From contig OX246743.1 in the NCBI GenBank assembly GCA_945910005.1, forward strand, positions 16,640,695 through 16,704,694: a stretch of 64,000 bases of DNA, read 5' to 3'. Source of the stretch: Isoperla grammatica (Eukaryota; Arthropoda; Insecta; Plecoptera; Perlodidae). The notes beneath the pieces were generated by a model that worked only from the letters and a program-made list of their open reading frames with translations, searched no databases and was not told where the DNA came from. Below, in pieces: positions 18,692 to 64,000 of the stretch. Within the stretch, counting starts at the first letter, position 1; each line of letters starts with the position of its first letter. The position numbers and the translations under genes were made by a program.

Positions 18692-18946
18692 CGTACCGCA
18701 AGTGCCAAGCAGACGACTTCCGTTGCGGTCCTGACACCGCGGGGCCCTGCCTCCCGAAAGAGAAGCGCTGTGACGGATACTACGACTGCAGAAACAGTAG
18801 GGACGAAGAGGGTTGCGGACCTTCACACGGGGTCTCCTGCTCGCTAGACCAATTCAGATGTGCCAACGGACAGAGGTGTGTCGACAACTACCAGAAGTGT
18901 AACCATAGGAACGACTGCGGAGACAACAGTGACGAAGATGGATGTA
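18692..18946 (+). CDS. Lrp1 exon 1 of window: LDLa 1-2
   Basis: Two LDLa modules (CQADDFRCG...[16 protein letters not shown]...DEEGC and [14 protein letters not shown]...[16 protein letters not shown]). The acceptor is TTGCTTCCAG and the donor is A/GTAAGT. It enters and leaves in phase 1, as usual for LDLa exons. An upstream exon must supply the first base of the entry codon. The intron 18947-20010 is AT-rich with no clear element; 19210-19350 has weakly inverted ends (GCGTATTCCG against GGAACGC) and might be a MITE. Confidence 0.93.

Positions 18947-64000: not shown

Follow-up and report, generated by a model that had tools for sequence, protein, structure and literature searches.

Tandem arrays crossing exon-intron boundaries in several genes of the stonefly Isoperla grammatica extend amphioxus mirages to a new phylum

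The closest described counterparts of the structures reported here are the mirages of amphioxus, which have been described in the globin genes BflGb6 and BflGb9 (PMC3087553) and in PGBD5 (PMC3902484), with Adh3 and troponin C added by citation. The arrays of the stonefly Isoperla grammatica share with them a tandem unit, similar to a minisatellite, that spans an exon-intron boundary, lies on the acceptor or the donor side and keeps the splice signal in most copies, and likewise the occurrence in several unrelated genes and the concerted evolution among units. They differ in that the host is a stonefly rather than a cephalochordate, that at least 15 arrays are found in a single gene, and that copy number reaches about 155, compared with 3-6 units in amphioxus BflGb6; placement, GC and codon-frame tests were made for the stonefly arrays. 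The stonefly arrays are therefore of a described kind, mirages, in a new phylum, and the amphioxus work precedes them, so that the initial annotation of this DNA, which knew of no described mechanism aimed at exon edges, is not supported on this point. No report of such arrays outside amphioxus was recognised in the literature searched, which leaves out most subscription journals.

Other systems resemble the stonefly arrays in part. In the potato RdRp gene, a single duplication across an intron-exon boundary gave a new intron (PMC4974935); it includes, as in the stonefly, the acceptor and part of the exon, but it is one duplication whose new intron is in use, whereas the stonefly has long arrays with no sign of new-intron use. 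The papers on earthworm metallothionein and abalone TSSK1 mention intronic minisatellites, in passages that do not describe units spanning an exon edge. Ordinary intronic minisatellites share GC-rich units and high copy number with the stonefly arrays, and such arrays adjoin edge-crossing ones in the gene described below, but their unit lacks an exon edge and none of their copies is coding. Introners are dispersed copies of one element; as with these, a splice-site-carrying sequence multiplies in genes, but each stonefly array is built from its own local exon edge and intron.

The window, that is, the whole stretch of 64,000 nucleotides that was analysed (C13:16640695-16704694), contains between 18692 and 64000 a chain of 28 exons (E1-E28, + strand) that were set by their splice sites and one continuous frame and that together form one stop-free frame, 1,953 codons long and incomplete at its ends, where the window stops or exons went unseen. 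In the chained protein, repeats of LDL-receptor classes A and B are accompanied by the Pfam family EGF_LRP2. Its residues 49-927 (of the first 930) align best, and colinearly, with LRP2 among solved structures, a match that alone cannot exclude LRP1, which is absent among the 35 structures listed. Among the best 120 of 446 matches in a public protein search, the top named ones are insect proteins of 72-74% identity (Rhamnusium, Chilo, D. simulans and Ostrinia, with one Ostrinia protein named LRP2-like), other matches are lower, such as those from Ephemera (67%) and Aromia (57%), and proteins named LRP1 or LRP1B lie near 30%; the sole Branchiostoma match among these 120 (35%) is named vitellogenin receptor-like and is not a fair LRP2 comparison. 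An amphioxus host, considered at first because of the likeness to mirages, was rejected in view of these insect matches and of ND2 from the mitochondrial contig, reached through COX1, which over 344 residues is 99% identical to that of Isoperla grammatica. Judging from the EGF_LRP2 family, the structure match and the protein matches, the gene is LRP2-like and very probably LRP2 (LRP2 below), and the name Lrp1 that had been given to it was dropped.

Running TRF on the whole window (33 rows) and comparing the result with the exon chain gave eight edge arrays within this gene, at the positions and with the periods reported in the initial annotation, which had also divided them correctly into six acceptor-side and two donor-side arrays. 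On the acceptor side, all on the + strand, are A1 (22001-22179, 89 bp, 2 junction copies; real exon E4, 22143-22435), A3 (27498-29519, 89 bp, 23 copies; E9, 29466-29675), A4 (32214-32563, 121 bp, 3 copies; E13, 32466-32670), A6 (37687-38873, 108 bp, 11 copies; E19, 38797-38983), A7 (42581-59171, 113 bp but also 109 and 119 bp, 147 copies; E23, 59076-59342) and A8 (62801-63878, 83 bp, 13 copies; E28, from 63815). On the donor side of the same strand are A2 (24008-24973, 73 bp, 14 copies; E6, 23807-24012), whose inner copies are without a few coding-edge bases, and A5 (34947-35832, 113 bp, 8 copies; E16, 34896-35035), whose last unit retains 16 intronic bases absent from its other units. This gives 2+14+23+3+8+11+147+13 = 221 junction copies. 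All eight arrays cross one exon-intron boundary, each unit consisting, as had been claimed, of part of the adjacent exon and its own splice site, and the real exon edge is held by the outermost unit, which closes each of the six acceptor arrays and opens each of the two donor arrays. According to the splicing predicted from these coordinates, a single open frame results if the outermost copies alone are used. Where an array has at least two inner units, as seven of the eight do, its units agree with their own consensus at a mean identity of 98.3-100%, and the lowest value for a single unit is 92.4%, in A7. Because units and periods differ from array to array, the proposal that the arrays arose independently is supported. 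Where two purely intronic tandem repeats had been counted, TRF gives three of at least 40 bp in the gene part, which serve as comparison: 21208-21499 (42 bp x 6.9), 39713-40064 (92 bp x 3.8) and 59595-59863 (132 bp x 2, 85% alike).

Several other elements lie among these arrays. Just before A1, at 21626-22005, is a fold-back element with 185-nt arms that are 98% complementary and with TTAA at both ends, which we take to be piggyBac-like; it would have inserted after the A1 duplication, since the inner join of A1 still carries an uninterrupted TTAA site. ATTT/ATTC tetranucleotide arrays were found by TRF in introns (25817-26007 and 33640-33775), and the approximately 450 bp of 26615-27065, bounded on either side by palindromic words of the ATCGATAT type, are possibly a small transposon. 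Further upstream, TRF reports arrays at 1-5893 (131 bp), 10352-11517 (61 bp) and 12651-16392 (44 bp), the first of which extends upstream to about 9.8 kb. These three probably sit in a large intron of the LRP2-like gene, since an LRP2-like exon is found at C13:16598544-16598658.

To extend the survey, 42.7 kb upstream and 60 kb downstream of the window were fetched, and 17 of the matching proteins served as tblastn queries to locate exons; downstream, the chained gene model broke at one exon. Outside the window, the donor-side arrays of LRP2 are U1 (149 bp, 15 exact donor copies), D1 (units of 35 and 49 bp) and D2 (97 bp, 3 copies), and the acceptor-side arrays are D3 (161 bp, 5.6 copies), D4 (99 bp, 17 exact copies), D5 (C13:16741984-16757323, 99 bp, 155 junction copies, 153 of them with AG) and D6 (143 bp, 2 copies), which brings this one gene to at least 15 edge arrays. 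Edge arrays, all on the acceptor side, were also found at four of eight myosin loci (L031, L034, L036 and L038), a sample picked for several exons close together and for which the profile table already hinted at one array; the L036 exon was identified by reading its translation. Other repeats in the myosin sample have units of 78 bp (L034), 162 bp (L032, 80% alike), 37 bp (L033, 70% alike) and 27 bp (L037), and the one in L034 (1574-2275, 78 bp x 9), which may or may not involve an exon edge, reads without a stop on the minus strand, 26 codons to each unit. At G000:C1:33475044-33479396, six adjacent myosin-head matches fall on about the same part of the profile (near 377-441) and presumably resemble alternative exons of a muscle myosin gene. 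Two of ten stretches of ABC-transporter genes carry edge arrays (two in L039, which was picked on suspicion from spaced partial matches in the ABC profile table, and one in L047), and none was found in the other eight. Within the LDL-receptor family, L025, suspected beforehand from spaced matches, has four and L028 has one, and none was found in L026, L027 and L029. A repeat row of 29 bp (80%) overlaps an exon block in L001. COX1-like fragments on nuclear contigs (G000:C20:25373517-25375544, C1:81905030-81910618 and others) are probably copies of mitochondrial DNA in the nucleus. In total, 27 edge arrays were counted, 19 on the acceptor and 8 on the donor side; several unrelated genes of this genome carry them.

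This recurrence in unrelated genes also bears on whether the arrays are an artefact of assembly. Such an explanation could appeal to A7 (16.6 kb) and D5 (15.3 kb), both of which exceed the mean HiFi read length, put by arithmetic at about 8.7 kb, and the copy number of A7 does rest on the assembly. But the other seven window arrays measure about 2 kb at most, the assembly has a QV of 55.3, and the arrays contain many unit variants, the rare ones of which are clustered, so that we regard an artefact as very improbable.

We then asked how far the position of the arrays departs from chance. In the placement test, which covered LRP2 and the myosin sample (the edge arrays of the ABC and other LDL-receptor loci are counts only), units were dropped randomly on the array-collapsed sequence, with exon interiors excluded; the exon edges downstream of the window were a mix of chained and homology-block edges, accurate to some tens of bases. 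For the LRP2 stretch, 14 of 26 arrays lie at edges, compared with 3.37 expected (P = 5.5e-7). The part 18692-64000, which was chosen because it is striking, gives 8 of 11 (2.96 expected, P = 1.8e-3), the whole window 8 of 13 (1.92 expected, P = 1.2e-4) and the downstream flank 5 of 5 (0.96 expected, P = 1.7e-4), and 6 of the 12 arrays wholly outside the window are at edges; the D5 exon was confirmed only after this test and the GC-matched one below, and D6, found later, is uncounted. In the myosin sample, 4 of 7 are at edges (1.25 expected, P = 0.020), or 4 of 5 when repeats less than 85% alike are removed (P = 0.0042). Edge placement beyond chance is thus observed in both samples.

Base composition accounts for much of this. 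GC content is 0.351 in introns and 0.577 in exons, and the 12 intronic arrays, which hold no exon sequence, are themselves GC-rich, with a mean of 0.465 versus 0.363 and none of 2000 draws as high. When placement is matched for GC, the expectation for LRP2 rises to 8.42 of 26 versus the 14 observed (P = 0.0105), and in the exon-dense part (arrays from 61387 on) 13 of 16 compare with 5.50 expected (P = 1.7e-5), where matching on unit GC is partly circular. The strong bias toward exon boundaries that had been put forward from this stretch therefore goes beyond chance in LRP2 and myosin, but about half of the excess is absorbed by the GC-matched expectation of 8.42. Since the exons supply the GC-rich DNA and none of the 59 LRP2 exons used encloses a whole array, proneness of GC-rich DNA together with selection against repeats inside exons accounts for a large part of the bias. 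For the residual excess, GC proneness alone may not be enough. A dedicated edge-targeting mechanism is not required by these data; a cause linked to the junctions is possible, because this residue remains and because matching on unit GC is partly circular. Such a cause would be a mutational process that acts on splice junctions themselves and thereby favours duplications at exon edges; breaks or template switching coupled to splicing during transcription, or to R-loops where GC content steps, are examples. It would fit the excess left after GC matching (in all of LRP2 and in its exon-dense part) and the preponderance of 19 acceptor over 8 donor arrays, although the sign test, run only when the count was 14 of 19, gives P = 0.064. 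Against it, arrays also arise in GC-rich intron DNA away from exons and a large share of the excess tracks GC, and the circularity in the matching weakens the argument on both sides; we consider such a process rather unlikely.

With respect to the splice sites, AG or GT is intact in all 221 junction copies of the window, and the splice dinucleotide is intact in 433 of the 442 ungapped copies from 20 arrays. These counts speak for selection that retains the arrays as decoy splice sites or splicing regulators, the former of which the initial annotation had named as a candidate. However, divergence is too low for intact sites to mean much: about 6% of unit columns are variable, and to find none variable among 14 splice columns is expected anyway by arithmetic, which is why intact splice sites were dropped as a sign of selection. 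In addition, the AG is missing in 2 of the 4 copies of the L025 4840 array that matched the search pattern, AT stands in its place in 2 of 155 D5 copies, and variation follows the codon frame, not just the surroundings of the splice sites. Selection for decoys is left unsupported, and we give it only a small chance of being correct. The coding sequence and intact splice site in each unit might instead suggest alternative, mutually exclusive exons, but each unit of the window arrays carries just one splice site, and use of the tested inner copies (nearest and farthest in each window array) would yield a premature stop or a frameshift, which makes this reading extremely improbable. The arrays are probably without a role in splicing.

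How the arrays were formed is hinted at by their joins. Read by eye, A5 has a short shared stretch, CGT, at its join, A1 an imperfect one, TGC-ACCA, and A7 and D5 a few additional bases; the flanks of A2, A3, U1 and D4 have diverged too far for a judgement. Joins of this kind resemble the products of end joining or template switching, and duplication by either route is plausible. Of the earlier suggestion of template switching at the splice junction, the switching thus stands as plausible, but its targeting to the junction is not required by the data. Some arrays appear, from their sequence, to have been built from a unit that had lost coding-edge bases (A2, A6 and D3) or intron-flank bases (A5). 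In A7 and D5, unit types are intermixed with few likenesses between neighbours, yet rare types are clustered: likeness between neighbouring units is not above that of shuffled units, and clustering of rare types as strong as that observed occurs in 2 of 5000 shuffles for A7 and 121 of 5000 for D5. Growth by slippage alone was rejected because neighbours in these two arrays are no more alike than shuffled units (no lag-1 likeness), although rare types cluster.

The best new lead of this analysis is a codon-frame signature in the exonic part of the units, which was compared ungapped in 20 of the 27 edge arrays (422 inner copies; left out were A1, A2, D1, D6, the L025 arrays 1-504 and 4840-5227 and the first L039 array). 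Variants within the inner copies comprise 32 synonymous and 24 nonsynonymous changes, and differences between the coding copy and the inner consensus comprise 29 and 7, compared with an expected nonsynonymous share of 0.72-0.78 (P = 3e-6 to 2e-8 and 6e-11 to 2e-13, respectively); a variant copied from unit to unit is no independent event, and each was counted once per array. The ratios are 31/19 within copies and 29/7 versus the coding copy if only copies with an intact splice dinucleotide are used, and 19/10 and 12/6 if CpG sites are removed (P = 2.8e-6 and 1.6e-4). Read in the right frame, the changes divide into 60 synonymous and 26 nonsynonymous, versus 18/67 and 8/76 in the wrong frames. 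The window arrays alone give 11/9 and 4/0, and L039 supplies 9 of the 29 synonymous coding-versus-consensus differences. It thus looks as if most of the variation in the inner copies was once screened by protein selection, even though it is now intronic. Since the exonic parts of the inner copies differ mostly synonymously, the simplest reading of the pattern suggests that inner copies keep exchanging sequence with the coding copy; the main alternative is repeated seeding from different coding alleles.

Taken together, we think it reasonably likely that the arrays are mirage-type minisatellites that arose in steps, through duplication of GC-rich DNA, survival across the splice site, block copying and exchange. 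First, end joining or template switching would produce a tandem duplication of about 35-160 bp in GC-rich DNA, as the few or zero shared bases at the joins suggest, and with the AT-rich introns of this genome GC-rich DNA would mostly be exon. A duplication inside an exon would damage the protein and be lost, whereas one that crosses a splice site would be harmless, because splicing would join the outermost copy alone and the remaining copies would become intron, as the intact frame implies. The array would then lengthen as blocks are copied locally, in many cases from a unit already short of some bases. Finally, the exon edge, now the last repeat, would still swap sequence with the inner copies, which could explain why these differ mostly synonymously; here the pattern is observed, and the exchange and its direction are what we infer from it.

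It is tempting to extend this stepwise origin to a broader picture, which we put forward tentatively, as a possibility slightly less likely than not: in this stonefly many coding edges may simply be the terminal repeats of minisatellites in their introns and evolve in concert with them. Inner and coding copies would overwrite each other through gene conversion or unequal exchange, which would make the intron a bank of protein-filtered edge variants. This may be a recurrent habit that arose independently in lancelets and in stoneflies, and one from which new introns can be drawn continually. If the concerted reading is true, an exon could be rewritten from edge variants stored in its intron, and the codon-frame pattern would allow exchange of a coding exon with the intronic copies of its edge to be measured. 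The arrays extend a lancelet curiosity to an insect, at a scale open to statistics, and they carry a warning for annotation, since they can produce false exons. They also offer a natural test of how the splicing machinery chooses one site among a hundred near-identical ones, and edge arrays are raw material for intron gain.
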